Assembly (NCBI RefSeq): GCF_013280595.1
Contig: NZ_JAAATY010000017.1
Span: forward strand, 1 to 64,000
Origin: Kibdelosporangium persicum
Lineage (GTDB): Bacteria > Actinomycetota > Actinomycetes > Mycobacteriales > Pseudonocardiaceae
Direction of reading: 5' to 3'
DNA length: 64,000 nt
Every line of letters begins with the position of its first letter. Position 1 is the first letter of the stretch. The position numbers and the translations under genes were made by a program. Below, in pieces: positions 26,160-43,090 of this stretch. The notes beneath the pieces are model-generated. The model ran no database searches, was not told where the DNA came from, and was given only the letters and a program-made list of their open reading frames with translations.

Positions 26160-27164
26160 TCAGGCCATCGGAGCCGCCGCTTCTGCTTCCAGGTAGCGGT
26201 CCGCGTGCCGGGACTCGGCGATCAGCCGGAGGGTCCGGCTGCGTGCGGTCCCGGTGTGTTCGATGGGCACGAGCATGATCTCGTCAACGTCCATAGTGGT
26301 CGCCAGGTTGTGGATCTCGTTCAGCACGGTCGTGGGCGCGCCGCGGACGACCTGTCCTTCGTCGAGGACCTGGTCGACCAGGTACCGCAGGCGCGACTCG
26401 ATGAGGTCGTCGCCTTCACGCCGCCGGACATCCCATTGCGCGACCGCGATGGCGGCCCGCTCGGCTTCCTCGTCTGTCTCCGCGCACACGACGTTGACAG
26501 ACGCGATCACGTAAGGCCGCTCACCGGTGAACGTCGCCCGATAGCGGTCCACCGCCGCCGGACGAGCCTTGCTTCGCCCAAGGTGGTGGCCGTAGACGAA
26601 CGGTAGTCCGCGTTCGGCGGCGAGACGAGCGCTGTTCTCCCCGGCTCCGAGGACGAAAACACCGGGCGGTGTCGAGATTCTGGGTGACATCCGCAGCGAC
26701 TCGAACCGGTGGCCGGCGGGCCACGAGTCGTGCAGGAAACCGAGTAGCTCATCGACCAGATCGGAGAACTCCGCCATCGCCCGCGGATGGCGATACAGCG
26801 CGTCATGGAGCACGTTGCTCGTCGTGTTGCCGCCGGAGGACCGGCCGACACCGAGATCAACCCGGCCATCGTGCAGCCCCTGCAGGACGGCGAACTGTTC
26901 GGCGACGACCAGCGGTGCGTGGTTGGGCAGCATGACCCCGCCGGAGCCGACCCGCAAAGTCTTTGTGCAGGCGGCGATATAGGCCAGCAGGACGGCGGGG
27001 GAGCTGCCTGCGGTCGCGGCCGCCGCATGGTGCTCGGCCACCCAGAACCGGTGGTACCCATGCCGTTCCGCGGTCCGGGCGACCTGTACGACGTCCCGAA
27101 GCGCTTGTTCGGGCGAGCTGTCCTGGCCGATCACCGCGAGGTCGAGCACCGACAGGTCAAGCAT
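26160..27164 (-). CDS. LLM-class oxidoreductase in lanthipeptide operon
   Basis: A 334-residue luciferase-like oxidoreductase of the MsnO8-like group. Family blocks are LSVLDLAVIGQDSSPEQALR, HRFWVAEHH, VGSGGVMLPNHAPLVVAEQF and HDGRVDLGVGRSSGG. It starts at ATG 27164 with a GGAG site, 9 bases after the MFS stop, so it is the fourth gene of the precursor-lanKC-MFS operon. F420H2-dependent reductases (LanJC) are known to reduce dehydroalanine to D-Ala in lanthipeptides such as lexapeptide; an analogous role here is an inference. A monooxygenase role is the alternative. Confidence 0.9.
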   Translation of the reverse strand: MLDLSVLDLAVIGQDSSPEQALRDVVQVARTAERHGYHRFWVAEHHAAAATAGSSPAVLLAYIAACTKTLRVGSGGVMLPNHAPLVVAEQFAVLQGLHDGRVDLGVGRSSGGNTTSNVLHDALYRHPRAMAEFSDLVDELLGFLHDSWPAGHRFESLRMSPRISTPPGVFVLGAGENSARLAAERGLPFVYGHHLGRSKARPAAVDRYRATFTGERPYVIASVNVVCAETDEEAERAAIAVAQWDVRRREGDDLIESRLRYLVDQVLDEGQVVRGAPTTVLNEIHNLATTMDVDEIMLVPIEHTGTARSRTLRLIAESRHADRYLEAEAAAPMA

Positions 27165-27173
27165 GGTCGTCTC

Positions 27174-28391
27174 CTAGTGTGCGGAGTGCTGTGGAGCGGG
27201 CAGCAGGACGGCGAGTGCGGCCAGTGCGCTGAGCGTGATGGCGAACAACCCGGCCGTCATGCCGAAACTGGCCTCGGTGAGCAGGATTCCCGCGGCCAAT
27301 GGTCCCAGGGGCTGCAGGACTTGGGCGGTGAAGCTGCTGGCGGCGGTGACCCGGCCGTAGATCTCTTCCGGGACCGCCTTGGCCAGGATGGTGGCCAGCA
27401 CAGCCCCGGTCACCGGGGCGAACAGGCACAACGTGGAGAACGCCGCGACGAACGGGATGGTCCCGCCGCCGGACCAGGCGACCACGAGCAGCGCAGCGGC
27501 GATCACCGGGCCGGCCGCGAGCACTGTCCGGAGCGACAGCCGTTTGGCGGCAGTGGGCGCGATGAGCGAGCCGGCCAGACCGGCCACCGCGGCCGTGCTC
27601 AGCGCCACGCCCACCGCGGCCGCGCCGCCGGGCTGGCCGGCCGTGCCGAGGATCAACGCGAAGGTCAGTGCGGAGAAAGTCACGTTCAGCAGCGCGAAGA
27701 ACAGCGACGACCACCGCAGGAACCGGTCTCTGACAAGGTATCGCCAACCGGCGGCGACCTGGCGCAGGAAGCGCTCACGAACGGCCGGCTGCCCACTGGA
27801 CGGGGATCGGGCCAGCAAAGCCACACATGACGCGGAGATCGCGAAGGTGACAGCATCGACCGCGAACGGTGCCCACGCCGCCACGGACAACAGCAACCCG
27901 GCCGCAGCCGGTGCCACGATCGTGGCCGCGTAAGTGCGAGCCTGGTTGAGCGACACCGCCTGGCTGAGCTGATCCACCGGGACGACCCGGCGCACCACCT
28001 TGCTCTGGCTGGGCCGGAACACCTCCAGCGCGACACCCGACACGATCACCAGCGCGAACGCCGACCACAGCGGCAACGGCCCGACGAACGCGAGCACCGC
28101 GACGATCGCCACGGCGACCAGACGCGCCAGGTCACAGACCAACATCAGCGTGCGCTGGTCGTATCGGTCGGCCAGATACCCGCTGGGGACCCGGATGACC
28201 AGACCCACCACGAGGACCACGGTCCCGAGCAGACCCGCGGTCGCCGGGGCGTACCCGGCCGCGAGCAGCGTCAGCGGCACCGCCAACGCTGTCATCTCCG
28301 ACCCGAAGTCCGACAGTGCCTGGCCGACCCAGAGCAACCGGAACTCCCGGTTGCGCCGCAGCGGAGTGACCGTCTCCTGCGTCGCGGTCAT
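27174..28391 (-). CDS. MFS transporter, likely lanthipeptide exporter
   Basis: A 405-residue major-facilitator protein with about 12 membrane helices, of the MFS_3/enterobactin-exporter-like type (LLWVGQALSDFGSEMTALAV at the first helix, SGYLADRYDQRTLML as loop 2-3 motif A). The true start is ATG 28391, overlapping the lanKC stop by four bases (ATGA), a sign of translational coupling. Longer frames upstream lie inside lanKC. Transport of the modified peptide or self-resistance is the natural inference, although lanthipeptides more often use ABC exporters. Confidence 0.9.
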   Translation of the reverse strand: MTATQETVTPLRRNREFRLLWVGQALSDFGSEMTALAVPLTLLAAGYAPATAGLLGTVVLVVGLVIRVPSGYLADRYDQRTLMLVCDLARLVAVAIVAVLAFVGPLPLWSAFALVIVSGVALEVFRPSQSKVVRRVVPVDQLSQAVSLNQARTYAATIVAPAAAGLLLSVAAWAPFAVDAVTFAISASCVALLARSPSSGQPAVRERFLRQVAAGWRYLVRDRFLRWSSLFFALLNVTFSALTFALILGTAGQPGGAAAVGVALSTAAVAGLAGSLIAPTAAKRLSLRTVLAAGPVIAAALLVVAWSGGGTIPFVAAFSTLCLFAPVTGAVLATILAKAVPEEIYGRVTAASSFTAQVLQPLGPLAAGILLTEASFGMTAGLFAITLSALAALAVLLPAPQHSAH

Positions 28392-31105
28392 CGCCGGTCC
28401 ACGAGCAGGTCGTCGAGCACGAAGTTCAGGTTCGTCCGGGCACCCGGCGCGGTCCGCCGGAACCGGTCGAGGAACAACGCGACACCAGCCGAGCCGGTGG
28501 CGAGGTCGGCACTCTCCCGCAGGGTCTGCTCGCCAGGGAACACCACGCCTTCGGGGCGTTCGACAGCGTTGCACAGGACCGCGGCGGCGACCCGTTCCGC
28601 GTCCCCGAGCAGCTCCGGGTCGCCGAGGAACTCGTAGGCGTCCAGCAGGGTGTTGCCGATTCCGCTCGCGCCGTGGAAAAGCTGGGGGAAGGCCACGTAC
28701 TTGCGTCGTACATCGGGCAGCAGCTTGTCGATCCACGACCGGTACTCGCCGGTCACCTCGTGGTATCGCAGGGTGGTGGTCAGGATGCCCGCGGTGCCCT
28801 CGTCCCAGTAGTGCCGCAGCATGGTGGTCGGACTGTCCTCTGTGGCCGCGACCGCCGGGAACGTGAGCACGCCGCTGGAGAGGTACTCGCCCTGGGACAA
28901 GTCGTAGTCCAGCGCGGCTCGGCCGAGGTCCAAAGTGGCCGGATCGTTCGTCGCGGCGTGCAGGGCGAGCAGGAACATCGCCACGCCGGACGCGCCGTAC
29001 CCGTAACCGATGGGCACCTCGTCGTCCGGGCTGGGCCAGTGCGCGTGGCCGCCGTCCCAGACCGCGCGGTCACCGAGACTGGTACCGATGGCGCGGGCGC
29101 GGTCGAGGAACTCTGGCAGTCCGGTGTCACGCCACAACCGCAGGCATGCCATGCCATGACCGGCCGCGCCGATGAGCACACCGGGTTCGGTGAGCAGCAA
29201 CGGGTGGTCGCTGCTGCCGCGCAGGGTCGTTGTCGCGAGCTCCGGGTAGCCCATCGCCGACTGGGCCCACGCGACTCCGGCGGTGCCGTAGTACAGGCCC
29301 GGCGGCATGGCCGCCACGGCCGTCGACCGCTGTAGCGTCCAGCCGAGGAAGGTGTCCGGAATCTGTCCTTTGAGGACATGCAACGCGTAGAGGCTCCCGT
29401 AGGCGCCGTGTGCCAGCGACAATGGGTTCGTCTCGAACACCAGCAGGTCTGCGGGGAACAGCCGGTCCTCGCGGTGCGGATCGGCCGAGTTGACCAGGTA
29501 GTCGGCGACACTGTCCATAGTCGCCTCGATCCGCTTGTGCAGGCGGGCACTCGCGACCGGCTCAGGGGTCACCGGCCTGGCCAGCGGTGGTGATCGTCGC
29601 CAGGCGGTGGTGAAGGGAAGGTCCTCGATCCGCTTGCGCACCACCGCCGCGTCCGGCAACGGCGCGTCCTCGGCGTAGAGGTCTCCGATCAGGGACACCA
29701 GTTCGGCCGGCAGGTCCAGATCCGCGGCCGCCTCGGCGAACAACTGTCGCGGGATGTCCTGCTCCACGACATCGGCCTGGTGACACATCAGAACGCAGCA
29801 CAGGATCACGCCACCGAGCGCGTAGTAGTCGGTCCGCCGGTCACCGCATCGTGCGGCTAGTGCCCGTCGGGTCACCATGCCCGGTGTGCTCAACCCGGCG
29901 CCCTGATCGACGCCCTCGTGGAACGCGGATTCCAGGTCGATGATCCGCACGTGGTCGTCCGGAGTCACGATGATGTTCGTCGGCGACAGGTCGCCCAGGA
30001 CGATCCCGCGCTCGTGGCACACGGCGACCGCCTCGGCCACCTGCGCCCACAGCCCGCGGAACCGCGAGTAGTAGTCCGTGAGCCGGGAGGGCGTGGGATC
30101 CAGGCTGTAGATCGGGTTCTCGGTGATGCTCAGCCGGCCGATCGGGGTGCCCGGGACGTACTCCTCCACGAGGTAGGCGTGTTCCCACTGGGTGAAGAAG
30201 TCGATCGGACGGACGAACAGGCCGGTGTCGGACAGGTCGGTCAGAATGTCGTACTCGTGGCGCAACAACCGCACGGCGTCGATCCCGGCCGGGCCGACCT
30301 CGACCCCCGGACGAGCCTCACGCAGGACGATGTCGGCGCCGGTCTCGGTGTCGATGCCGCGGTACACGCCGCCCCGGTTGCTCAGCAGCAGAGCACTGTC
30401 CACTACGTACCGGCCACCGGCGAGTGCGGTGGAACCAGGGGTGTCGTCCGCCGTCACGGGAGTCTCGCTTCCGAACGGGTCACGCGCCCAGTCCGGTACT
30501 GACCAATAGGGATTGCGGATGTCCGGAACCTTGGAGCCGTCCGGCGCGTCGATCATCAGTTCCCGGATGCCCGAGGACCGTAGCCGGAAGTAGCTCGTGA
30601 AGCCGCCGTACCGGTAGTACACGACCCGCGACCCGGGAAACCGGCGGTCGGACAACAGATACGGTCCGTCGAAATCCTTGAGCTCCTGCGTCAATGCTTC
30701 TCCGACCGCGTGGAACTCGGCCTCGTCGGCCGGATACACGGTGATGAACTTGCCGCTGGAGCCGCGCGGGTACGACTTCCCGTTCACCTCGCGGACCGCC
30801 AACGGATCCATGAGGAACTTGAAGCGGACGCCTGCGTCACGCAGCACCGGCAGTGCCGCGCGCAGCACTTCGGCGGAGTTGCGCGAAGTGGCCGATACGT
30901 GCAGTTTCCAGCCCTGCCCGACGAGTGGCACCTCCGGCGGCTCGGCGATGAGCCAGTAACCGCGTCGCCGCAGCTGCCAGTCACCGGGCATCGCGGCGCG
31001 GTACTCGCCGACATGCTCGCTGCCCGGCGTTCGCCGCGTGAAGTCCTCGAACCACCGTGGATGGTGCATCATGTAGGACACCACGGTCTCCCAGTCGACC
31101 TGCAT
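28388..31105 (-). CDS. lanKC: Class III lanthipeptide synthetase (LanKC)
   Basis: A 905-residue three-domain RiPP synthetase. Residues about 1-210 are the phosphoSer/Thr lyase-like domain (SYPRGSSGKFITVYPA). The kinase domain at about 240-490 has CHERGIVLGDLSPTNIIV, with GDLSPTN as catalytic loop, and IIDLESA in place of DFG. The rest is a LanC-like cyclase (HGAYGSLYALHVL, GYGYGASGVAMFLLALH, LFHGASGIGNTLLDAYEF). The zinc ligands of true LanC are missing (WDEGTAG for WCxGxxG; FHG for CHG), which places it in class III, not class IV. The ATG at 31105 has a GGAG site; the upstream GTG at 31144 lies against a hairpin and has none. It should dehydrate Ser and form (methyl)lanthionine or labionin rings on the peptide encoded upstream. 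Confidence 0.94.
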   Translation of the reverse strand: MQVDWETVVSYMMHHPRWFEDFTRRTPGSEHVGEYRAAMPGDWQLRRRGYWLIAEPPEVPLVGQGWKLHVSATSRNSAEVLRAALPVLRDAGVRFKFLMDPLAVREVNGKSYPRGSSGKFITVYPADEAEFHAVGEALTQELKDFDGPYLLSDRRFPGSRVVYYRYGGFTSYFRLRSSGIRELMIDAPDGSKVPDIRNPYWSVPDWARDPFGSETPVTADDTPGSTALAGGRYVVDSALLLSNRGGVYRGIDTETGADIVLREARPGVEVGPAGIDAVRLLRHEYDILTDLSDTGLFVRPIDFFTQWEHAYLVEEYVPGTPIGRLSITENPIYSLDPTPSRLTDYYSRFRGLWAQVAEAVAVCHERGIVLGDLSPTNIIVTPDDHVRIIDLESAFHEGVDQGAGLSTPGMVTRRALAARCGDRRTDYYALGGVILCCVLMCHQADVVEQDIPRQLFAEAAADLDLPAELVSLIGDLYAEDAPLPDAAVVRKRIEDLPFTTAWRRSPPLARPVTPEPVASARLHKRIEATMDSVADYLVNSADPHREDRLFPADLLVFETNPLSLAHGAYGSLYALHVLKGQIPDTFLGWTLQRSTAVAAMPPGLYYGTAGVAWAQSAMGYPELATTTLRGSSDHPLLLTEPGVLIGAAGHGMACLRLWRDTGLPEFLDRARAIGTSLGDRAVWDGGHAHWPSPDDEVPIGYGYGASGVAMFLLALHAATNDPATLDLGRAALDYDLSQGEYLSSGVLTFPAVAATEDSPTTMLRHYWDEGTAGILTTTLRYHEVTGEYRSWIDKLLPDVRRKYVAFPQLFHGASGIGNTLLDAYEFLGDPELLGDAERVAAAVLCNAVERPEGVVFPGEQTLRESADLATGSAGVALFLDRFRRTAPGARTNLNFVLDDLLVDRR

Positions 31106-31146
31106 TCCGCTCACTCCATCCACTTCGGGTTCGGCCAGGGGCACCC

Positions 31147-31192: not shown

Positions 31193-31357
31193 TCAGCAGC
31201 TGGCCCCGTAGCAGGAGCTGCAGCTCATCCCCGGGCTGCTGTACTGCGGCCCCTTCTCGGTCTTGAGCTTCTGCAGACCGAGAACGTCCGCGCTGTGCGC
31301 CTCGACCTCGTCGCTGTCGATCTCCTCGGGCTCCGGCTGGGTCGTGTCGTCGGACAT
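31193..31357 (-). CDS. lanA: Lanthipeptide precursor peptide (54 aa)
   Basis: A 54-residue peptide with a GGGAGG site before ATG 31357. The leader is acidic (MSDDTTQPEPEEIDSDEVEA), with the helical segment SADVLGLQKLKTEK resembling the LLxLQ motif by which class III synthetases bind leaders. The putative core is about GPQYSSPGMSCSSCYGASC, with five to six Ser and three Cys (46, 49, 54). Ser45-x2-Ser48-x5-Cys54 fits the labionin pattern S-x2-S-x(2-5)-C. The tyrosines and CxxC spacing could also suit radical-SAM thioether chemistry. The leader/core boundary is not certain. It heads the lanKC-MFS-LLM operon and is divergent from the radical SAM gene. Confidence 0.85.
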   Translation of the reverse strand: MSDDTTQPEPEEIDSDEVEAHSADVLGLQKLKTEKGPQYSSPGMSCSSCYGASC

Positions 31358-31603
31358 GCGTGTTCCTCCCTGTTGTGAGGTGTGGCAGGTGACGCCGTGC
31401 ACCACGCTAGGGACGCGATTCGGAAGCCTGGTATGCGCGTGGTGAAGGTGTTGCCGCACAGGGGAAACAGTCATGCCGCGCAGCTCGTTTTTCTGTCTAT
31501 TGTGGTGTGTCCACCGGCGCTGGCCAGTGCGCATACCGGACGCAAACCGCACGACAGGGGGGCCACCGAGAATAAGAGACCGGCGGCAAGGAGGTGTCAG
31601 CGG

Positions 31604-32647
31604 ATGCGACTGGCCGAGATGATGGCGCTTCGCCAGGAGATCTGCGCTGGTCTCCTGGTGACGTTGACCGAACGGTGCCCACTGCACTGTGCGCACTGCT
31701 CGGCGTCCGCTGCTCTGAACGGCAGGCACCTTGATGGTGTGGCCCTGCTGCGGTTCGTGCGGACGTTCACCGCACAGTGCCGTCCGGACGTGGTGATGCT
31801 GACCGGTGGTGAACCGTTGCTCCGTCCGCGGTTGGTCGTTGAGACCGCGCGGGCGGCCAAGGCCGCGGGCACCCGGACCGCGGTGCTGTCAGGTGCGTTC
31901 TTCGCCGGAGACGGCCGGATTCCGGCGTCCATCCGGCCGGCGATCCAGGCGGTGGATCACGTCTCCCTGAGTCTCGACGTGTTCCATGAGCGTGAAGTCG
32001 CCCGCCAGGACGTCTTCGCTGTGCTGAGAACCCTTCTGCGCCACGGCATCACGACCAGTCTGCACATCACGGGCACAAGCTCGGATGATCCCTACCTCAG
32101 CGAGGTGACCGCCGAGGTCACCCGCATCTTCGGCACGGACGTGCCCATGCTGGTGAGTGAGTTCAAGCCGATCGGCCGCGCGGCCGCCTGGGCGAGAGCG
32201 ACTCCACAAGCGGACAGCAGTGCCGCACCGTGCGCGATGGCCGCTTGGCCGGTGGTCACCGTCGACGCGGCCGTGGTCGTCTGCTGCAATCAGGACGTGG
32301 TGGACGGCCGGACCAGGCCGGACCACCTGCGCCTGGGCGTGCTGGCTACCTCGACCTGGCCCGAGGTTCACGAACGGGCACATTCGTCGCCGGTGCTGCG
32401 CATGATCCGCACTGTCGGACCGCTGCACATCGCCCGCTGCGGCGGCACCGACCTGGCGGACTATTGTGGTTCGTGCCAACGACTCGCGCCCGCCGCACTG
32501 GACTGGGCCACACAGGCGGGCACCGGGCCCGCGGGCGAACTGCTCCAGGCTGTTGCGGTCCGCAATGGACAGATGGGTGGGCCACGCGCGTTGCTGCGCA
32601 GGCACGGCGTCGCTCGCTACGCGCATCTTGTCGGTGATGACGGATGA
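31604..32647 (+). CDS. Radical SAM protein with C-terminal auxiliary Cys cluster
   Basis: A 347-residue radical SAM enzyme. ATG 31604 has AAGGAGG upstream. TERCPLHCAHC gives the CxxxCxxC 4Fe-4S motif at Cys25, 29 and 32; MLTGGEPLL is the SAM-binding GGE loop. Later cysteines in VVVCCNQD and ARCGGTDLADYCGSCQ form a twitch/SPASM-like region, which in peptide-modifying enzymes holds auxiliary clusters. It is the first gene of an operon divergent from the lanthipeptide precursor gene (246 bases between starts). A role in modifying that precursor, or the 67-residue peptide encoded downstream, is inferred. Confidence 0.9.
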   Translation: MRLAEMMALRQEICAGLLVTLTERCPLHCAHCSASAALNGRHLDGVALLRFVRTFTAQCRPDVVMLTGGEPLLRPRLVVETARAAKAAGTRTAVLSGAFFAGDGRIPASIRPAIQAVDHVSLSLDVFHEREVARQDVFAVLRTLLRHGITTSLHITGTSSDDPYLSEVTAEVTRIFGTDVPMLVSEFKPIGRAAAWARATPQADSSAAPCAMAAWPVVTVDAAVVVCCNQDVVDGRTRPDHLRLGVLATSTWPEVHERAHSSPVLRMIRTVGPLHIARCGGTDLADYCGSCQRLAPAALDWATQAGTGPAGELLQAVAVRNGQMGGPRALLRRHGVARYAHLVGDDG

Positions 32648-32720
32648 GCGAGCTTGCGAGCGAATCATCCAATGCAGAGCCCCGCTCATGCGACGTGGGT
32701 GGCCACAACGAGGAGAAGGC

Positions 32721-33389
32721 ATGAGCGCCGAGTTGCAGACCGTGCTGGACCTCATCAGCCCGGCCGTGCGGCGGAGCGCCGCCGCAGTGTGGCAGCCCAG
32801 CGGACTGCGTGAGCGCTATGCCCGGTACCTCGTCGAGATGCACGCGGTGTTGCGGGCCTCGGTACCTCTCATGGAGCTGGCGGCGCTGCGTTGCGCCCAG
32901 CCTGACCCGGTGTGTTCCCGGCTGCGCACCTATTTCCCAGTGCACATCGAGCAGGAGCTCGGCCACGACGAATGGCTGCTCGGCGATATGGCGGCCGTGG
33001 GACTCAGGCCGGAGGTCGAGCAGGCTCGCCCGCCGTCGGTGCAGGTCGCCCGTCTCGTCGGCCCGCAGTACTACTGGATCAACCACCACCATCCGGTGGC
33101 GCTGCTGGGCTACATCGCCGTGCTGGAGGGCAATTCGCCGTCGCCGGAGCTGACCGGGCTGCTCGCCGACCGGACCGGCCTGCCGCTGCGGGCCTTCCAC
33201 ACGCTGAGTCATCACGCCGAGGCCGATCCCGGGCACAGCGGTGAGGTGTTCGCCCTGCTCGCCGAGTTGGACCTCACCGCGGAGCAACGTCTTGTGGTTC
33301 GGACGAGCGCACTGCACACGGCGGCGGCGCTCATCGACCTGTTCGACATCCTGGCCGCACCGCCCCAGAACCGGGAGGACCCGCTGTGA
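32721..33389 (+). CDS. Heme-oxygenase-like di-iron (HDO/TenA-type) protein
   Basis: A 222-residue all-helical protein beginning ATG 32721 with AGGAGAAGG upstream. The block HIEQELGHDEWLLGDM (residues 75-90) and the later HTLSHHAEADPGHSGE supply Glu/His/Asp ligands in the order seen in heme-oxygenase-like di-iron oxidases and oxygenases (iron-containing redox enzyme family). Such enzymes cleave C-C bonds or N-oxygenate substrates. The gene overlaps the next by four bases (GTGA). In this operon it may oxidise the RiPP or an aromatic residue; this is inference. Confidence 0.8.
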   Translation: MSAELQTVLDLISPAVRRSAAAVWQPSGLRERYARYLVEMHAVLRASVPLMELAALRCAQPDPVCSRLRTYFPVHIEQELGHDEWLLGDMAAVGLRPEVEQARPPSVQVARLVGPQYYWINHHHPVALLGYIAVLEGNSPSPELTGLLADRTGLPLRAFHTLSHHAEADPGHSGEVFALLAELDLTAEQRLVVRTSALHTAAALIDLFDILAAPPQNREDPL

Positions 33390-33589
33390 CGACCGAGCCC
33401 GACGCGACCCTGCGCGCACTGGCCGACGCAGGCTTTCCGATCGACACGTTCACCGAGGAGCAGCGTGCTGTGTTCGCCGGGCTCTCCGCGGCGGAACTGG
33501 AGCTGATCCTCGACATCAAACGTCGGCTGGACGCCGTGGAACCCGAGGTCCAGGCGCACGCCGTCGTCGCGGGTGCTGCGCTGTTCTGA
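33386..33589 (+). CDS. 67-residue leader-like peptide (aroma-sacti-cluster type)
   Basis: A GTG-initiated 67-residue protein overlapping the HDO stop by four bases. It is mostly helical: ALADAGFPIDTFTEEQRAVF and GLSAAELELILDIKRRLDAV are followed by EPEVQAHAVVAGAALF. From memory this resembles small proteins named aroma-sacti cluster domain proteins, found beside radical SAM genes in actinomycetes. It could be a second RiPP precursor whose C-terminal AHAVVAGAALF tail is the core, or a leader-binding partner. No Cys is present, so it cannot form thioethers. Confidence 0.8.
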   Translation: MTTEPDATLRALADAGFPIDTFTEEQRAVFAGLSAAELELILDIKRRLDAVEPEVQAHAVVAGAALF

Positions 33590-33603
33590 GTGGGGGACAC
33601 GCC

Positions 33604-36510
33604 ATGGAGCAGCGTAAACTCGTGACGGTTTTGTTCTGCGACCTCGTCGGTTCCACCGAACTGGCCGGCGTCCTGGAACCGGAGACGCTCCGGTCGGTCG
33701 TCATGAGCTACTTCGACACCGCGCGCAGGCAGATCGAGGCGCACGGCGGAACGGTCGAGAAATTCATCGGGGACGCGGTGATGGCCGTGTTCGGTGTCCC
33801 CACCGTGCGCGAGGACGATGCGCGTCGTGGCGCGGCTGCCGCCTTGGACATGATCGCCGCACTGGCCGAGCTCAACGCCGACCTGGAAAGCACGTTCGAC
33901 TGCAGACTGTCGGTGCGGATCGGCGTCAACACCGGTGAGGTCGTCGCCACCGGCACGCAGGGCGCCACCGAGAACCTGGTCGCCGGTGAGGTGGTCAACG
34001 TCGCGGCCCGGCTGGAACAGAACGCGGGCCCGGGCGAGGTCCTGATCGGACCGGTCACCCGTGCGCTGCTCGGCGGCGAGGCGGAGGTCGAGACGGTCGG
34101 GGCGTTGGCGTTGAAGGGAAAACGCGACCCGGTGACCACGTTCCGGCTGCTGGGTATCCGGCCCGACCCAGGATGGCTGGACATGGCCGTCGGCACCCCG
34201 TTCGTCGGCCGGGAGCGGGAGCTCGACCTGTTGCGCGAATGTTGGGCCAGGACGCTGGACGGGCGGAGCCAGTCGGTGACGCTGTCCGGTGAGGCGGGGA
34301 TCGGCAAGACCAGACTCGTCCAGCACTGGCTGTCCGGGCTGCCGGACGACAGTGCGATGATCGGGTCGGGACGCTGCCACCCTTATCGCGACCAGGCGAG
34401 CCTCACCCCCCTTGCGCAGGCGTTGCGCCAGATCCTCGACACGGCGACCCACATCGGCGTGCCCACCGGAAAGTTGCGGTGCGAGCCTGCCTACCGAGTG
34501 CTGCGCTCCGGTCTGCTGCGGGACGGTACCCCGGGCCGCTCGGCGGACAGCACTTACGCCGCGATCGCCACTCTGCTGACCGAAATGGCCACCGTCCGCC
34601 CGGTCATCCTCGTGCTCGACGATGTCCAATGGGCAGAGGAGGTTCTGCTCGACGGTGTCGCCCGGCTGGCCGACATGGTGAGCGAGACGCGGGTGCTTCT
34701 GGTTCTCGCGGGCCGGAAAACCGGCAGTCCACTCCGGACAGTCGAGGTGCCTGCGCTGCCCGAAGCGGACATGGAGCGGCTTGCCGCCGAACTGGTCGAG
34801 GTGCAGGCGCACGTGCCTGCCGTACTCGCCAGGGTGATCGACCGGGCCGAGGGCAACCCGCTGTATCTCGAACAGTTGCTGGCGATGCTCGATGACGGAG
34901 CTGATCCCGGGAAGCTGCCGGTGACGGTGACCGCGGTGCTGGCCGCGCGGATCGACTCACTCGGCCCGGCCGAACGCGTGGTGCTGGACGCCGCCTCCGT
35001 CGTCGGCCGCCAGTTCGACACAGTCGAGATCGAGGCGCTGGCTGAGACCGGGGTGTCCGCCGGACTGCCCGGACTGACGCGCCGCGGGCTGGTCGAACCC
35101 GTGCGCGGCAGCGAGTACCGGTTCCGGAGCGGGTTGCTGCGGGACGTGGCCTACCAGGCGATCAGCAAACGCCGTCGGGCGGACTGGCACGAGGCGCTCG
35201 CCGGGCGGTGCACGACTGCGGCCGCCACGGGTCACCACCTCGAGCAGGCGTATCTCCATCGGCACGGACTCGGCCTGCGCGACGACCACACCGGCCGCCT
35301 GCGCGAGCAGGCCGCCTGTGCCCTCACCGTCGCGGGCCGCAGCGCACTGGCGCGCGCTGACCTGTCCTGGTCGGCGGACCTGGGCAGGCGGGCCATCGCA
35401 CACTCCACACAGGACGACCCGTGGTGGGCGCTGGCGGCCGAAGGGCTCGGCGAGACCCTGCTGGCCATGGGTATGACCCGGGACGGCAGCGAACTGCTGC
35501 GGGACGTAATGGCCTTGTCGATCACCTCAGGCGATCAGCTCACCTACGCGCACGCGAAGCTGCAACTGGCGGCGCTGGACACCCAGCCGGCCCGGCCCGG
35601 GCGGATACCGGCGGCCGACACCGCGCGCGAGGTGCTGCCGGTCTTCGAGGCGTACACCGACCACCTGGGCTTGGCACGCGGTCACATCCGCCTCGCTCAG
35701 GAACAGCAACTGATCGGGTCGCACGGCGCCGCGGAAGAACTGCTGGCCGCCGCGCTGCGGCACGCCGTCACGGCCGATGCCGCACCCGAGCAGGCGATGG
35801 CGCTCGGCGCGATCGGGATCTCCCTCTGGTACGGACCGGCACCGGCGGCCCAGGCTGTGCGGCGCTGTCGCGAACTGCTCGCCCTGCACGGCCGGAATCA
35901 CGACGTCGTGTCCGTCACCCTCAACTACCCGCTGGCGAACCTTCTCGCCCTGCAAGGAAAGGATCGTGAGGCGCGGGCTTGTCTCGCCGTCGCGGACAAG
36001 TTCGCCAATGACCTCGGCTACGCGGAGGCCGCGATGTTCGGGCCGCTGTTCGCCGCGGGAGTCGACGCGCTCGCCGGCCGGCTCGAGTCAGCCGAACAGT
36101 TGCTGGTCGACGCCGTCCGGTCGGCGCGGGCAGCCGGCGACCCGGGACTGATCGCGACCGCATCCTGCCAGCTGGCCAGAGTGCTGCTGCGCCGGGGAAA
36201 ACCTCCTGGGCCGGAGCTGCTCGACCAGATCTCCGGATCGCCCAGTGGGCAGGACGCCGACCCGCTCGGCGTGCTCGCCCTCGCGGCGGGCGATCCGGCG
36301 ATGGCGCATCGCGCGGTGGCCGCGGCGGAGCGAACCGACTCGCCGATCACACTTGCCACGGCACACTTGGACCTCGCCGCGGTGAGCCTGGCGACCGGTG
36401 ACGCCGCGACCGCGGTGACCGCCGCGGACCGCGCGGCGGACTGGTTCGCGGCCAAGGGCCATGTCGTCGGCGGCCATGCCGCCGCCGCCATCCGGGAGGC
36501 CGCGCTGTGA
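33604..36510 (+). CDS. Class III nucleotide cyclase/AAA ATPase regulator
   Basis: A 968-residue multidomain regulator. The N-terminal 175 residues are a class III adenylate/guanylate cyclase domain (LVTVLFCDLVGSTELAG, GGTVEKFIGDAVMAVFG with both metal Asp, VNVAARLEQNA). An AAA_16 ATPase follows (FVGRERELDLL, LSGEAGIGKTRLV P-loop, VILVLDDVQWAEE Walker B), then a long TPR-like helical C-terminus. This architecture is common in actinobacterial signalling regulators. It lies 14 bases after the small peptide gene and overlaps the subtilase gene by four bases, so it is co-translated with the RiPP operon. It may sense a ligand and control the cluster. Confidence 0.92.
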   Translation: MEQRKLVTVLFCDLVGSTELAGVLEPETLRSVVMSYFDTARRQIEAHGGTVEKFIGDAVMAVFGVPTVREDDARRGAAAALDMIAALAELNADLESTFDCRLSVRIGVNTGEVVATGTQGATENLVAGEVVNVAARLEQNAGPGEVLIGPVTRALLGGEAEVETVGALALKGKRDPVTTFRLLGIRPDPGWLDMAVGTPFVGRERELDLLRECWARTLDGRSQSVTLSGEAGIGKTRLVQHWLSGLPDDSAMIGSGRCHPYRDQASLTPLAQALRQILDTATHIGVPTGKLRCEPAYRVLRSGLLRDGTPGRSADSTYAAIATLLTEMATVRPVILVLDDVQWAEEVLLDGVARLADMVSETRVLLVLAGRKTGSPLRTVEVPALPEADMERLAAELVEVQAHVPAVLARVIDRAEGNPLYLEQLLAMLDDGADPGKLPVTVTAVLAARIDSLGPAERVVLDAASVVGRQFDTVEIEALAETGVSAGLPGLTRRGLVEPVRGSEYRFRSGLLRDVAYQAISKRRRADWHEALAGRCTTAAATGHHLEQAYLHRHGLGLRDDHTGRLREQAACALTVAGRSALARADLSWSADLGRRAIAHSTQDDPWWALAAEGLGETLLAMGMTRDGSELLRDVMALSITSGDQLTYAHAKLQLAALDTQPARPGRIPAADTAREVLPVFEAYTDHLGLARGHIRLAQEQQLIGSHGAAEELLAAALRHAVTADAAPEQAMALGAIGISLWYGPAPAAQAVRRCRELLALHGRNHDVVSVTLNYPLANLLALQGKDREARACLAVADKFANDLGYAEAAMFGPLFAAGVDALAGRLESAEQLLVDAVRSARAAGDPGLIATASCQLARVLLRRGKPPGPELLDQISGSPSGQDADPLGVLALAAGDPAMAHRAVAAAERTDSPITLATAHLDLAAVSLATGDAATAVTAADRAADWFAAKGHVVGGHAAAAIREAAL

Positions 36511-37319
36511 CTCGTGCGCTCAGCTGGGGCCTGCGTGATCAGAGACCCTCGGACATCAAGGTCGGCGCGACCGGCCTCGATCAGGTGACCCCCGAGTGGG
36601 CCTGGGGAGGCTCGACCGGTGCGGGGGTCCGGGTGTGCGTTGTGGACAGTGGGATCGAGGGCGGCCATCCGCTTGTCCGGTCGGTCGCCAGCGCACATGA
36701 GGTGGTGCAAGGAGAAAACGGTCCCGAGGTGCGCCCGGCCGACCCCGAGGACACCTGCGGCCACGGCACCGCCTGCGCCGGGATCATCCGCGATGTCGCA
36801 CCGGACTGCGAACTGCACAGCGTCCGGGTCCTTGGCCGGGGGTTCACCGGCAGCGGCCGCTTCCTGCTCGCCGGGCTGCGCTGGGCCGTCGAGCAAAGGT
36901 TCGACGTGATCAACATGAGCCTGTCGACCACGCACACCAAGTTCGCCCACGAACTGCACGAACTGGCCGACGAGGCCTACTTCCGGCGCATCGCCATCGT
37001 CGCGTCGGCCCACAACACCCCGGTGGTCAGCTTTCCCTGGCGGTTCTGCTCCGTCCTGTCGGTCGGCAGCCACCAGGAACCCGACCCTGGCCTGTACCTG
37101 TACAACCCGGCGCCACCGGTGGAGTTCTTCGCGATGGGCCGTGATGTGGTCGTCGCGTGGCCCGGTGGTGGAACCGTCCGCACCACGGGCAACAGCTTCG
37201 CCACGCCGAGGATCACCGGCCTGTGCGCGGCGATCCTCGCCAAACACCCGCAGCTGACCATCTTCCAGCTCAAGACCGTGCTGTACCTGGCCGCGGCGAA
37301 CGTCCGCACCGAGAAATGA
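36507..37319 (+). CDS. Cytosolic S8 subtilisin-like protease without prodomain
   Basis: A 270-residue minimal subtilase. Catalytic Asp47 in VVDSGIEGGHP, His86 in CGHGTACAG, oxyanion Asn170 in VASAHNTP and Ser230 in TGNSFATPRITG are all present, though GTS is GNS. There is no signal peptide and no I9 prodomain, so it should fold and act inside the cell. It resembles the small S8 proteins in several RiPP clusters and the protease part of cyanobactin PatA-type enzymes. Cleavage of a leader peptide is the likely role. GTG 36507 overlaps the upstream stop (GTGA). Confidence 0.9.
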   Translation: MTRALSWGLRDQRPSDIKVGATGLDQVTPEWAWGGSTGAGVRVCVVDSGIEGGHPLVRSVASAHEVVQGENGPEVRPADPEDTCGHGTACAGIIRDVAPDCELHSVRVLGRGFTGSGRFLLAGLRWAVEQRFDVINMSLSTTHTKFAHELHELADEAYFRRIAIVASAHNTPVVSFPWRFCSVLSVGSHQEPDPGLYLYNPAPPVEFFAMGRDVVVAWPGGGTVRTTGNSFATPRITGLCAAILAKHPQLTIFQLKTVLYLAAANVRTEK

Positions 37320-37328
37320 GGTCTGGCC

Positions 37329-37910
37329 GTGACACTGGACGTCTCACCCGCGCCGAGCGGCACCCGGGAACTGCTTCAGTCCATTGTGGAGGTCGCGATG
37401 GCGATCTTCGGCGCCGCCGCCAGCTCGGTCTTCCTGCTCGACGAACCCGAGGGTGAACTGGTCTTCGAGGCCGTCGCCGGTGCCGGGCAGGATTTCCTGA
37501 TCGGCACCAGGATCCCGGCCGGCCGCGGGATCGCGGGCTGGGTGGTGAGTTCGGGCCAGGCCGTCATCGCCGACGACCTGACCGGCAACCGGACGTTCGC
37601 CCGTGATCTGGCGGAGTCCACCGGCTACGTGCCCCAGGCGCTGATGGCCGCGCCGCTGTTGTCCGCCGGCGAGGTGCTCGGTGTGCTGGAGGTGATCGAT
37701 CCGGCCGTGCAGTCCCGCTCCAGCCTGGGCGACCTGGACTTGCTGTCGCTGTTCGCCAACCAGGCCGCCACGGCGCTGCGGGTGGCCAGAGGATGCTCTC
37801 ACTGCCGGGACGACAGTGAGCCGCTCGTCCGCCTCGCCGCCGACGAGAGTGAACTCGGCGCGCAACTGGTGGGCGTGTTCAAGGACTTCCTGCGGCACCG
37901 GAATGGCTGA
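37329..37910 (+). CDS. GAF-domain protein
   Basis: A 193-residue protein with one GAF domain (SSVFLLDEPEGELVFEAVAG, GRGIAGWVVSSGQAVIADDL, VPQALMAAPLLSAGEVLGVL), followed by a short helical tail with CSHC. It has no output domain, so it may bind a small ligand and signal through a partner, perhaps the cyclase/AAA protein of the same operon. It starts at GTG 37329, 9 bases after the subtilase stop, and its 3' end overlaps the convergent SARP gene by 32 bases. Confidence 0.85.
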   Translation: MTLDVSPAPSGTRELLQSIVEVAMAIFGAAASSVFLLDEPEGELVFEAVAGAGQDFLIGTRIPAGRGIAGWVVSSGQAVIADDLTGNRTFARDLAESTGYVPQALMAAPLLSAGEVLGVLEVIDPAVQSRSSLGDLDLLSLFANQAATALRVARGCSHCRDDSEPLVRLAADESELGAQLVGVFKDFLRHRNG

Positions 37911-39666
37911 CCCGGTGGCGCGCAGCGGTTTCCCGGCAGTGCCGGTAGGTCAGGGCGGACATGTCGTAGCTGGCGTAGCACGCGGTGACCTCGGCGTCCG
38001 GCGCTGCCAGGACATCACACTCCAGCAGCGATTCCAGCAGCAGGTCGGGCGACGCGGCCAGGTCGGCCAGTGCCGCGATGATCTGGCCGTGCTCGAATGG
38101 TGGCGGCGGCAAGTCGGCGAGCCGGCGGTACGCGGCGCGCTGCAGGTCGGACATGGTGCGGTAGAACAGGTCGAGCCGGTCGCGGAAGGCCAGTCCCCCC
38201 ACCGCCAGCTCGTCCAGCACGCGCGCGGGATCGCCGAGGCGGTCGGCGAACTCGGCGAGGGTGATGTGCCGCAGTGCCGCCAGTCTCGACGCGACGATCT
38301 GGATCGCGAGTGGCCGGCCCTCGCAGCTGCCGATGATCCGCCCGACCGCGTCCCGGTCGGCGAGCACCCGGCTGCGGCCGATGACCCGGCCGAGCAGCTC
38401 CCGGCTCTCCGCCTCGCCCAGTGCCCCGAGACGGATACGCAGCACCGATTCCAGTCCCCACAGTGGGCTGCGGCCGGTCACGAGCACGCCACTCGTTCCC
38501 CAGCCGGGCAGGACCGCCCGGACGGTGTCCTCGTGTGTCGCGTTGTCCAGCACGAGCAGCAGCCTGCGCTGCGCGATCCAGGACCGCCAGCGCGCCGATG
38601 CCTGCGCCGCCCCACAGTCGAGGCCGATCATGCCCAGCAGGTGCTCGAACACCCGGCTCGCCGGCTTGGGCGTGCCGTCTTCCTCGGCCAGGTCGAGAAA
38701 CAGCTGCCCGTCGGGGAAGTTCGCGCGCAGCAGGTGGGCCACGTGAACGGCGAACGAGGACTTGCCGGAGCCGACCGGGCCGTGCACCACGACCACCCGG
38801 TGGCCCTTGTGACCGGACAGGGTTTCGGTGGCGCGGTCGGCCTCGGCGGCTCGTCCGACGAAGTCCGGCAGGGCGCGGGGAAGCTGGTTACCCGGCGCGA
38901 ACCGGCCCGGGCGGTTCGGCGGCCGGGCCTCGCCGTTGAGCAGTTCCCGGTGCACACTGCCCAGCATCGGACTGGGGTCCACGCCCAGTTCGTCGGCCAG
39001 CGTCTGCCGGATGAGCTCGTAGTGCGCCAAGGCCTCCTGGACCCGGCCGTCCGCAGCCAGAGCGCGGATCCATGCGCCGCCAAGCCTTTCCCGGAGCACA
39101 TGCGGCCGGACGTGCTCGGCCAGCCGGTCCAGCACGATCTGGTGGTCCCCGGATTCGACCGCCAGCTCGGCCCAGTCCTCCAGGCTGGCCAGGAAGATCT
39201 CGTGCCACCGGCCGAGGTCGGCGGTCAGGCCCGGTTCGTCCGCGAACTCGGCCAGCGGTGCACGCCACAGCGCCACGGCGTGACCGAGCAGGTCCGCGGC
39301 CGCGTCGGCATCCCCGTCCCGGCGCAATCGCCGCCCGCCGCGGGCGAGGTGCTCGAACCGCAGCAGGTCACACTCGTCGGGCGTGAGGTTCAGCCGGTAG
39401 CCGCGGGCGGTGAACCCGAGCCGGTCGCCGAAAGTCCGGCGCAGTTTGGAAATGTAGACCTGGAGGTTCTTCGGCGCCGTCCGTGGCGGGTGGGCGGCCC
39501 AGAGTGTCTCGACGAGGTCCTTGACCGGTACCACCGAGTTGGCCCGGCACAGCAGCTGAGCCAGCAGCAGCCGCTGCTTGGGCCGGCCGAGGTCGGCGGC
39601 CCGGCCGTCGACAAGGACCGTCAGCTCGCCAAATGTCCGGCATTCCACGGTGTTGCGTAAGCCCAT
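37879..39666 (-). CDS. SARP-type AfsR-like regulator
   Basis: A 595-residue regulator. Residues about 8-90 are an OmpR-like winged helix (FGELTVLVDGRAADLGRPKQ, LWAAHPPRTAPKNLQVYISK); about 95-240 are the BTAD domain (LADELGVDPSPMLGSVHREL); from about 265 an NB-ARC ATPase follows (FVGRAAEADR, VVHGPVGSGKSSFAVHVAHL, RLLLVLDNA). Such SARPs activate specialised-metabolism operons. ATG 39666 has a GGGGAG site. The gene converges on the RiPP operon and is the probable pathway activator. Confidence 0.93.
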   Translation of the reverse strand: MGLRNTVECRTFGELTVLVDGRAADLGRPKQRLLLAQLLCRANSVVPVKDLVETLWAAHPPRTAPKNLQVYISKLRRTFGDRLGFTARGYRLNLTPDECDLLRFEHLARGGRRLRRDGDADAAADLLGHAVALWRAPLAEFADEPGLTADLGRWHEIFLASLEDWAELAVESGDHQIVLDRLAEHVRPHVLRERLGGAWIRALAADGRVQEALAHYELIRQTLADELGVDPSPMLGSVHRELLNGEARPPNRPGRFAPGNQLPRALPDFVGRAAEADRATETLSGHKGHRVVVVHGPVGSGKSSFAVHVAHLLRANFPDGQLFLDLAEEDGTPKPASRVFEHLLGMIGLDCGAAQASARWRSWIAQRRLLLVLDNATHEDTVRAVLPGWGTSGVLVTGRSPLWGLESVLRIRLGALGEAESRELLGRVIGRSRVLADRDAVGRIIGSCEGRPLAIQIVASRLAALRHITLAEFADRLGDPARVLDELAVGGLAFRDRLDLFYRTMSDLQRAAYRRLADLPPPPFEHGQIIAALADLAASPDLLLESLLECDVLAAPDAEVTACYASYDMSALTYRHCRETAARHRVSHSGAAGSP

Positions 39667-39748
39667 GTGCTCCCCATCCCTTCGCCCCGGCGAGTATCAC
39701 CGTGCGGCGTTGGGAGCCGGTTGGACCCGGATAGGGCAGACGTGCGGC

Positions 39749-42700
39749 TCAGCCGGCACCGAGATCGGCGAGCCTGGCCGCCGAACGCCGGTGCCAGGTG
39801 ACGCACTCCATTTCGGCGTTGTGGCGTTCGGCCTTGCGCAGCAGGGTGATCGCCCGTTCGGTCTGTCCGGCGGTGGCGGCGGCCGCACCGAGGAAGTAGT
39901 CGATGGAGCCCCAGCAGAGGATCGCCGAGCCGGTGGTCACACTCTGGCCGGAGTACCGGAGCAGTTGCCCCAACGCGTACTCGCACGAGGGACCGTCGCC
40001 GCACAATGCCCAGGTGTAGGCGCGGATGACCATCTGCGTCAGCCACAACCAGTCCCGTGGCGGTTCTTTGAGCTGCCCGGCGGGCGGGCAGGCCACCCTG
40101 GCCTCGGCAAGATTTCCCTGCAAGGCGAGCACCAATCCCCGATGCTCCAGGGTGACCGGACTGTCCGGCTCGTCATGGCCACGCAGCATCTGTTGCGCTT
40201 CCTCGTACTTGCCCTGGTCGATCAGCCAGGACACGAGCTGGGCCGTGAGCGCGGGCTCCGAGCCCCACACTGTCTGCCGGTGCAACTCGTACGTCTGCCG
40301 GGACAGCCGCGCGGCGGTCTCCGGGTCACCGGCCAGGCCGGCCCGCATCGCTTTCCACCACCGCAGATGCACATCGACCTCGGGAAGCCGGATCCGCAGA
40401 TTGGCCTCGGTACAGGCGTCGATGTCGGCTTGCGCGGCCGTCATGTCGCCGGCTTCCAGCGAGGTCAACGCCCTGCGCAACAGCACACGCGGCGTCCAGT
40501 CCGCGCTGAGCTCGGCGTGCTCGGTCAGCTCGACCTGTTCCTGGACGATCCGCCGGCGCTCGGCGAGCGTGTCGGCATACCGGATCGCTTGGTGGCGCAA
40601 GTGAAGCGCGCGCATCAGCAGCGTGGGGTCACCGAGTCGCCGGGCCATGGCGACCGCCTCGGCGGAAGGCTGGCTCGGCCCGTGGACGTCAGGGCCGAAC
40701 TCGAAGTACTGCTCCGTCGCCAGCGCCGCGAGCGAGAGGCACCGCAAGCGCGAGTCCTCGGCGGGAAGCAACCGCACGGAGTCACGCAGCGCGGCCAGCA
40801 CAACCGGTTCCAGGGCAAGATATTCACGCATCGACCAGAACGACTCGGTGCTGTACGTGCAGGCGGCCGTGGCCAGTGCGCGCAGATCGCCGAGTTTCTC
40901 CGCGAGCCCGATCGCGCGACGCAACGTGGCCGAGGCGAGCTGTTGAAGGCCTGCGCGGCAACTGGTGCGGCCCAGTCTCACCAGCAACTCGAACAGTCTG
41001 CGTGTCTGCGTCGCGGACCGGGGAATCGCGTGGCGGTCGATGACGTCGACGACAGCACCGAACAGCGTCGCCGCGTGCTGGTACGCGTGCACTTGTTCGG
41101 CGCGCTCCGCTGCGGCGTGCCCAGCGGCGATCGCCTCCTCCGCGTGCCCGGCGCCGGATGCTTCCAGCCAGTGGTATGCCACGGCGTCCAGGACGTCGCT
41201 GTCGGGAATGTGTGGCACGCGCCGCGCGAGCGCGCGTGCGGCGTCGGCGTGCAGTTTCGCCAGCCGAAGCCGGGAAACCGAGGAACGGACGGTGTCGCGC
41301 ACGAGTGCGTGGCTGAACCGGTACCGGCCGGAGCTGGACTCGGTCACCAGCCCCCAGCGCAGCGCGGCGTCCAGCACCTCCGAGAACGTCTCGGCCGTGA
41401 GGCCGCTGGTCTCGGCCAGGACGTCCGTCGCGAACTCCTCACCGAGCACGGCCGCTGCCAACAGAACGGATCCGGCCTCGGGCGGCAGCCTGCGCAGCCG
41501 GTGCTGGATGAGGTCGCGGGTACCCTGTGGCAGGGCGTCGGCCAGCGAGCCGGACGTCAGCCTGGGGACCAGTCGGGCCAGTTCGACCACGTGGAAGGGG
41601 TTTCCGCCGGAGCGCTGGTGGATCACCCGCACGGCGTCCGGGTGCTCGGAGTCCGGCCAGGCGCTGAGCACCTCGCCGACCTCGGCCTCGGTCAGTCGGC
41701 GCAGCTGCCACCTGGTCGCCCAGCGCCCGGTCAGCTGGGCGACCAGCCCGGCGGCCGGCTCGACGAGGTCGGCTCCGTCCCGGCTGGTCGCGACCACGAG
41801 CAGCGGCAGCTCCGGCAGCATGGTGGTGAGCACCCGCAGCACGAGCACCGAGTCGGGATCGGCCCAGTGCAGGTCGTCCAGGACCACCAGTGCCGGGCGG
41901 TGGCCGGCGGCCGCCGCGATCACGTCGACAATGGCTGTGTGCAACCGTTTCTCGTTCGGTTGCGCGGACCGGCCGACGTTGAGCAGGGCACCGAGCCCGG
42001 CCTCCCCGGCCAGTTCCCGCAACGCGGAATCGGGCTCGATCAGCGTGCGCAGGACCGAAACCCACGGCCAGAAAGCCGGACTGCCCTCACCGTCCGGGCA
42101 CCGGCCCAACGCCACCGTGAACCCGAATTTCGTGCCCATGGCGACCGCGGCCTCGGTGACGCGGGTCTTGCCGATCCCGGGTTCGCCGGTGACCAGGAAC
42201 AGATGTCCGCTGCCGGTACTGGCGCGGGTCATCGCCTGCCGGATGGCGCGCAGCACGTCATCACGACCCGCCAAGCGCTCCACTGGGCGCGGACCGGTCA
42301 CCTCGACCGGGGCGCTGGTCAGGTCAAGGCTGGGGTCCTGGGTGAGGATGGCCTGTTCCAGCCGGCGCAGCCCGGCGCTCGGCTCGATGCCCAGTTCGGT
42401 CACCAGGGTGTGCCTGGCCTCCCGCAACGCTCCGAGCGCGTCGGCCTGCCGGCCGCTGCGGTAGAGCGCGAGCGTGAGCATCTCCCAGCGGCGTTCCCGC
42501 AACGGTTCGGCCATGACCAGCAGGCGCAACGCGACGGCCGCTTTGGCGGGCTGTCCCACCGCGAGTTCGGTCTCGGCCCGCTCGTCCTGGGCGGCGAGCC
42601 GCAGTTCCTCGAGTTCGGCCGCGGCCGTCGCGGCGAACGCGTCCGCGGCGAACTCACCGAACGCCGGGCCTCGCCACAAGTTGAGCGCCTCGTCGAACAG

Positions 42701-43084: not shown

Positions 43085-43090
43085 GTACAA

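Follow-up and report, generated by a model that had tools for sequence, protein, structure and literature searches.

A radical SAM operon and a class III lanthipeptide synthetase operon in Kibdelosporangium persicum: two tagged peptides and probably one shared protease

The stretch of DNA analysed here, referred to as the window, comprises the first 64,000 nucleotides of contig NZ_JAAATY010000017.1 of Kibdelosporangium persicum (GCF_013280595.1). It contains two divergent gene sets, spaced by 246 bp. The minus-strand set encodes a 54-residue LanA precursor (31193..31357) and LanKC, a class III lanthipeptide synthetase (28388..31144). The plus-strand set encodes a radical S-adenosylmethionine (SAM) enzyme (31604..32647), a protein resembling the heme-oxygenase-like diiron oxidases (HDOs; 32721..33389), a 67-residue peptide (33386..33589), a cyclase-like protein (33604..36510), an S8 subtilase (36507..37319) and a GAF-domain protein (37329..37910). 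The two sets probably form one system that makes two ribosomally synthesized and post-translationally modified peptides (RiPPs), each with its own tailoring enzymes, and that uses a single S8 protease to read a tag, [DE]V-x-[AG]-H, common to both precursors. The gene content, the linkage of the two sets, the conservation of the motif and the fact that LanKC and an alternative cassette do not overlap were all observed in the loci examined.

Relatives were collected by scanning genome contigs with the radical SAM protein as the query, which gave 23 loci. Matches to this protein were found in 3 of 390 genomes of the window's family and in 3 of 396 genomes of a phylum sample, the window's own genome being counted in both, and in 51 of 392 genomes of a genus taken to be Streptomyces. 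Fifty of the 51 Streptomyces loci and two relatives of the window were added, and 67 loci were left after the removal of repeats; loci and genomes are cited below by our L and G numbers. A search of plasmids gave no match, and 297 genomes of the Mesorhizobium order gave a single one, which was already known. The order radical SAM, HDO, 67-residue peptide, cyclase, S8, GAF is kept in most loci; in others an additional radical SAM gene is present, or S8 and GAF are located on the other side.

In 22 of the 50 Streptomyces loci a LanKC gene is at most about 9.5 kb away from the radical SAM operon, against 0.23 expected by chance. This expectation was derived from the number of LanKC matches per genome, and even three independent placements would have a probability of only 0.0015. 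Among the Streptomyces genomes with a single LanKC match, seven of 15 have that LanKC beside this operon. A tree of 91 LanKCs (33 linked rows and 58 unlinked ones from the same genomes; a quick tree with long branches) divides the linked enzymes into four separate groups: the window with L012; L036, L074, L030 and L034; 25 Streptomyces-type rows; and one of the two L035 genes with L146. The linkage label changes four times on this tree, at least three of these changes being forced by well supported branches, and a tree of 89 rows gave the same number of changes. The LanKC label on the radical SAM tree changes six times, at least five of them forced. Because of the changes on both trees, it is likely that distinct LanKCs became partners of this operon on more than one occasion. 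That the two gene sets are unrelated clusters lying side by side by chance would agree with the radical SAM operon being found without LanKC in 36 of the 67 loci, as far as the sequence examined extends. However, this idea was rejected on the linkage counts and the separate LanKC groups, and the presence of the tag in LanA also tracks the linkage, so that it keeps next to no probability. An original prediction, made from the letters of this DNA, had paired the two operons and proposed the co-occurrence of LanKC with the radical SAM/HDO operon in genomes as a check. The linkage far above chance, the four LanKC groups and the motif shared by LanA and the 67-residue peptide all agree with that pairing.

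Several arrangements seen along the way concern the LanKC genes themselves. Three LanKC genes lie near one radical SAM operon in G958 (L035, L145) and two in G787 (L036, L146), and the LanA peptides differ within each genome. In L123 (G973) some 18 kb separate the unlinked LanKC from the radical SAM gene; this LanKC belongs to a LanKC group (L123-L130, L142) in which the LanAs found in five loci read ILALQ...CFSVAWS(I/M)SDIFPEPM.

The shared motif occupies a defined position in each precursor. It is located at the border between domain and tail of the 67-residue peptide (EVQAH, residues 54-58, 33545..33559, plus strand, followed by AVVAGAALF) and in the leader of LanA (EVEAH, residues 17-21, 31295..31309, minus strand). 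It was found in the LanA of all 31 linked LanKC loci. In 26 of these, the tagged LanA is divergent from the radical SAM gene and at most 1.2 kb from it; in the other five (L017, L030, L034, L036, L074), it sits beside LanKC. The same genomes also supplied 58 unlinked LanKC loci, and none of the 31 LanA-like peptides recognised there has the motif. The control set from which these derive consisted of 60 further LanKC loci, two of which (L145, L146) proved to be near a radical SAM gene; 33 of the 60 had a recognisable LanA-like peptide, and only that of L145 bears the motif. A generic leader motif of class III lanthipeptides was rejected, as the tag is absent from the leaders of the unlinked LanAs, which are AmfS/SapB-like, of the ILALQ kind or of other kinds. 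This comparison covers the LanKCs of operon-bearing genomes, and genomes without the operon were sampled through the tag profile alone. When the profile was run against 295 Streptomyces genomes, 34 were matched, 33 of which were in the list of radical SAM-positive genomes; in the remaining one, G811, a contig end carries the genes for HDO, 67-residue peptide, cyclase, S8 and GAF. Since operon loci had supplied the profile, the informative part is the lack of matches elsewhere. Shuffling of single peptides produced the motif at a frequency of 0.001 to 0.008.

The third variable letter of the tag, A or G, provides a further link between the two peptides. Counted by eye over the loci where a script had found both peptides, the letter agrees in 37 of 37 (33 AH and four GH). 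Within one LanKC group the letter follows the operon, with EVEAH in L036 and L074 and EVQGH in L030 and L034.

The 67-residue peptide had been described in the original prediction as leader-like. Its presence was confirmed, and it is better described as a member of a named family, NF045560 aroma_sacti_dom (82.7 bits, cut-off 30, E 1.6e-23). It falls below the cut-off of the StsA-related model NF045559 (27.7 bits, cut-off 75) and has no Cys, hence none of the StsA-type CxC core. No mycofactocin or pyrroloquinoline quinone (PQQ) precursor model matched it, NF045560 and NF045559 being the only ones at E ≤ 0.1. The structure model consists of helices up to residue 55 and a disordered tail beyond (mean predicted local distance difference test score, pLDDT, 77), which puts EVQAH at the border of the two. 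Homologues are present near the radical SAM gene in all 67 loci except L078. Most of them end in GGALF or GAALF and others in GGVVW, GGVLF, GGYLW, GGAVW or GAFVW, giving a conserved C-terminal pattern G[GA]xx[FW]. This near-invariant end suggests a conserved role, such as that of a signal. Second aroma-domain peptides ending in SGAFVW were noted in L026 (19943-20212, minus strand), where the gene adjoins a second HDO gene, and in L077 (6395-7129, plus strand); where the tag would stand they read DVVSH or DVVPH.

The radical SAM enzyme (PF04055, 49.7 bits, cut-off 29.5) has a CxxxCxxC motif, C25, C29 and C32, which is invariant in all 16 aligned sequences, as are four more Cys (C210, C227, C288, C291). 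For the SPASM/twitch type, which is recognised by a set of auxiliary-cluster Cys or by a SPASM model, these four Cys are what the alignment offers, and no NCBIfam radical SAM model was above its cut-off among the 25 of 41 matches listed. Against solved structures the profile found YydG before PqqE, and the chemistry is thus not fixed by homology. PQQ and mycofactocin are made with a radical SAM enzyme and a protein of heme-oxygenase fold from a peptide ending in an aromatic residue. The window resembles these systems in that respect and differs from them, and from other radical SAM RiPPs, by its precursor family and by the rank of YydG over PqqE. The HDO-like protein (PF14518, 46.9 bits, cut-off 28.9) has six residues, E79, H82, E136, H165, D169 and H172, invariant in 15 of 15 sequences. 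They are putative metal ligands by analogy with the three-His/three-carboxylate set described for HDOs in PMC13108848. With this set and a model of heme-oxygenase-like fold (pLDDT 93.8; nearest structures 3dde, TenA-like proteins, UndA and CADD), the protein falls within the HDO superfamily. Its sequence profile also matches MboA, which is presented in PMC13185094 as a peptide side-chain desaturase of the HDO type.

Since homologues of the 67-residue peptide accompany the radical SAM/HDO pair, also in Mesorhizobium without LanKC, this peptide is more likely than LanA to be the substrate of the pair. The original prediction had instead proposed one doubly modified RiPP, in which LanKC, the radical SAM enzyme and the HDO would all process LanA. 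Co-occurrence of the two operons and the three Cys of the LanA core would suit such a product, and recognition of LanA by the radical SAM/HDO pair, too, could be the meaning of the shared motif. However, the pair has its own conserved peptide, also among the 36 loci where LanKC was not found in the sequence examined, the aroma domain and the GxxF/W tail are both missing from LanA, and the LanA cores vary widely (SCSSC.., NCISVLSVVE.., STASIVC) beside a single radical SAM family. Moreover, the pair and its peptide exist in Mesorhizobium without the motif. A single precursor serving both enzyme sets is therefore quite improbable.

The 67 loci fall into LanKC loci (31), loci with a second radical SAM protein, a glycosyltransferase-like one or both (24) and loci with neither (12). 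No locus combines LanKC with the alternative genes, although some of the contigs counted are short and the match in L083 is only about 30% identical. In 13 of the 36 loci without LanKC, a tagged Cys-containing peptide is divergent from the radical SAM gene; that of L060, for example, reads ...EVVAHREDEEAEAGCIVNHSAEM. In L029 and L083 the tagged peptide is elsewhere and has the form DVEGH. Through weak matches to the tag profile, five genomes in which a gene of the Streptomyces antibiotic regulatory protein (SARP) type adjoins the radical SAM gene were found to have tagged peptides as well, at a distance of 12-14 kb from the latter; the idea of SARP-type loci without a second peptide was accordingly dropped for G851, G931, G982, G571 and G954. 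In three of the five (L149, L150 and L151) the tag stands ahead of each of three WCGVHQE cores, and three copies as in L149 were obtained in none of 20000 shuffles. Weak matches also revealed tagged peptides at three further sites (L153-L155) in genomes that have the operon. Many of these loci have a second radical SAM protein, a glycosyltransferase-like protein or both. The second radical SAM protein has TIGR04463 as its best model, below cut-off. The glycosyltransferase-like protein of L060 scores 35 bits against TIGR01426 (cut-off 260), that of L148 had no Pfam match, and a prolyl oligopeptidase often accompanies these second radical SAM and glycosyltransferase-like genes.

A wider circle of relatives was obtained from seven genomes with aroma-domain genes and no close relative of the radical SAM enzyme. 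Two of the loci, L163 and L165, code for StsA-related sactipeptides (NF045559, E 3.7e-39 and 8e-39), in which DVVAH directly follows the domain. The peptide of L164 is near-identical to these by sequence, no model score having been taken. In all three loci, genes for cyclase, S8 and GAF lie no more than about 15 kb away. In L159-L162 one aroma-domain protein has EVEGQ, and in L159 and L160 a second one has AVEGQ; S8 and GAF genes are seen in L161 and L162, and the contigs of L159 and L160 end before that point. The trio of cyclase, S8 and GAF genes is thus the common part, and a tag-like sequence accompanies it. The window peptide thus shares with the StsA-related precursors the domain, the position of the tag and the three nearby genes, and differs from them in a tail without Cys, a score below the model cut-off and its partners, which are another radical SAM family and an HDO. 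No text on "aroma-sacti" was found in the open-licence literature.

The Mesorhizobium loci L021 and L033 have two radical SAM genes and an HDO, and no LanKC, S8, cyclase or GAF gene within 10 kb. An aroma-type peptide just upstream ends in GGFVW and is without the motif; that of L021 scores 46.7 bits against the aroma domain. These Mesorhizobium versions (9644-14461 in L021) include, in L021, a 561-residue protein, the end of which we take to resemble Asp/Asn beta-hydroxylases.

The aroma domain is also found C-terminally in larger proteins ending in DLKLL (L161 9918-10292, L163 3695-4186), where in L163 it is placed behind a LuxR-type DNA-binding region. Such a protein is possibly a regulator that mimics a precursor. 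These proteins, together with conservation of the 67-residue protein over its whole length, would favour a role for the latter as an adaptor or regulator, for instance as a leader mimic, with the substrate of the radical SAM enzyme and the HDO elsewhere. We consider this unlikely: the peptide accompanies the two enzymes in all but one of 67 loci, its tail is predicted to be disordered and carries the conserved aromatic end, and the StsA-related sactipeptide precursors share its domain.

The course of maturation that best explains these observations is as follows. LanKC would modify the 54-residue LanA, which has the LxLQ leader and Ser/Cys core typical of class III, where lanthionine or labionin rings mark the product, and the radical SAM enzyme and the diiron HDO would modify the 67-residue peptide, probably at the C-terminal G[GA]xx[FW]. 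The co-encoded S8 subtilase would read the tag in both precursors and most likely cut after its H. In the window, such a cut would free the 9-residue peptide AVVAGAALF, and the same cut would strip most of the LanA leader, ahead of the VLGLQ part, so that the rest would need further trimming. The cyclase/AAA and GAF proteins may sense or regulate. In relatives, the place of the LanA/LanKC cassette appears to be taken by other tagged Cys peptides, together with a second radical SAM enzyme, a glycosyltransferase-like protein or both.

Four observations favour the S8 protease as the reader of the tag. In the multi-core precursors every core is preceded by a copy of the tag, as would be expected of a cleavage site; the A/G letter agrees in 37 of 37 loci and follows the operon rather than the LanKC group; Mesorhizobium, without S8, is also without the tag; and known S8 leader proteases read similar sites, as described in PMC10885120. 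The sites given there are (T/S/A)EVE for AmyP, which acts on a class III lanthipeptide, (D/E-5)(L/V-4)X2(Q-1) for ElxP and G(L/V)E(A/P)S for PatA, and the same source mentions further leader trimming in other class III systems. The window is like the AmyP type in having LanKC, a LanA leader that holds EVE and a co-encoded S8 protease, and differs in that the S8 gene sits in a radical SAM/HDO operon encoding a second peptide with the same motif. It also reads DEVE where AmyP sites have T, S or A before EVE, and in some relatives EV is preceded by A or by a different residue. The site of ElxP, a protease of class I lanthipeptides, resembles the tag at positions -5 and -4 if the cut falls after H. 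Position -1 is then H in the window rather than Q, and Q is present in the EVEGQ of L159-L162; this likeness is one of the site alone. In cyanobactins an S8 protease reads a short sequence repeated ahead of each core (PatA on PatE; PMC10885120), and L149-L151 likewise repeat the tag before three cores. However, the cyanobactin site is different, and the window S8 protein scores only 32 bits against the PatA/PatG model TIGR03895 (cut-off 421).

An alternative is that two products are made and that the tag is a docking motif for the cyclase and GAF proteins, or for the radical SAM enzyme and HDO, and is not read by S8. The cyclase, GAF and S8 genes co-occur, and the data do not separate them; moreover, a cut after H in LanA would leave the VLGLQ part attached. 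Set against this are the repeated tags of the multi-core precursors, the similar sites of known S8 proteases (PMC10885120) and the untagged peptide that accompanies the Mesorhizobium radical SAM enzyme and HDO, and we regard the docking motif as rather unlikely.

Several points weigh against a shared S8 protease in a single system. The S8, cyclase and GAF genes occur together wherever the contig reaches, Mesorhizobium excepted, so that the reader of the tag cannot be told apart among them, and the lineage without both S8 and motif is a single one, represented by two Mesorhizobium species. Cleavage by S8 at the tag is deduced from sequence, and neither the D before EVE in the window nor the H fits its model site, the T/S/A of AmyP and the Q of ElxP. 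The four GH loci form one deep radical SAM clade, and the agreement of the A/G letter may thus reflect a single event; the script sought [AG]H alone in the second peptide. The changes on the trees could be losses rather than gains. In G787, the LanKC of L146 is 9.8 kb from the radical SAM gene and its LanA has no tag, which counts against a strict rule. Twelve of 67 loci have neither LanKC nor another cassette in the sequence examined, and in eight of these (L026, L031, L077-L082) no convincing tagged second peptide was found; the same holds for the stretches examined of L014, L015, L018, L019, L020, L032 and L046.

A shared S8 protease acting on two tagged peptides nevertheless remains the reading that we favour, and a bolder form of it can be put forward tentatively. 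The radical SAM/HDO/S8/cyclase/GAF operon may be a cross-class RiPP hub that produces a near-invariant, SEIAGGALF-like nonapeptide signal sensed by the cyclase and GAF proteins. The same S8 protease would then mature any partner RiPP, whether class III, a radical SAM-modified and possibly glycosylated Cys peptide or StsA-type, and the cassettes could be swapped through the tag.

Each part of this system belongs to a known kind, and S8 proteases that remove class III leaders are already known. What is new, as far as our searches show, is one radical SAM/HDO/protease operon paired with exchangeable RiPP cassettes via a common tag. No description of such an exchangeable, cross-class layout was found in the open-licence literature, which was searched for StsA, for LanKC with radical SAM and heme oxygenase, and for tag peptides. 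Should the tag prove to be a protease site common to the peptides, one maturation step would couple unrelated RiPP chemistries, and leader removal would be explained for this group of class III lanthipeptides. The uncharacterised radical SAM/HDO pair would gain a substrate. The tag would also serve as a handle for genome mining, given that the 34 matched among 295 Streptomyces genomes each have the operon or, in G811, most of it, and as a plug-in recognition sequence for hybrid peptides.

All genes named in the original prediction are present, with LanA, LanKC, a transporter of the major facilitator superfamily (MFS) and a luciferase-like monooxygenase (LLM)-class protein facing the plus-strand operon. 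LanA has the tagged leader, a VLGLQKL motif and a core with SCSSCYGASC. No precursor model matched it in the family-model scans, and related precursors with the same kind of leader were found in L012, L027, L013 and L022. LanKC (NF038151, 746 bits, cut-off 575) has RamC_N, kinase and LanC-like domains, with PF25816, PF00069 and PF05147 all above cut-off. The MFS gene (27174..28391, minus strand; PF07690, PF05977) overlaps LanKC by four bases (28388-28391), its start being an ATG that was picked by eye because it overlaps the LanKC stop. The LLM-class flavin oxidoreductase of the MsnO8 family (26160..27164, minus strand; TIGR03558, 313 bits, cut-off 167) adjoins LanKC in relative L012 as well.

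On the plus strand, the cyclase-like protein, a likely regulator, has an adenylate/guanylate cyclase-like domain, an AAA domain and a TPR-like region (PF00211 and PF13191 above cut-off), and the GAF protein matches PF01590. The S8 subtilase, the likely shared leader protease, was recognised by PF00082 and by subtilisins in the PDB, with weak matches, all below cut-off, to the QhpE, mycosin and PatA models. The tight 4-base overlaps that had been taken as a mark of this operon are found at two of its five junctions (HDO/67-residue peptide, 33386-33389; cyclase/S8, 36507-36510), the other three being gaps of 73, 14 and 9 bp. Beyond the two gene sets, the window encodes a helix-turn-helix/AAA regulator and two SARP-type regulators with a BTAD domain; the latter (37879-43090, minus strand) come after the GAF gene on the opposite strand. 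In relatives of the L014 and L024 types, a SARP-looking gene is divergent from the radical SAM gene.

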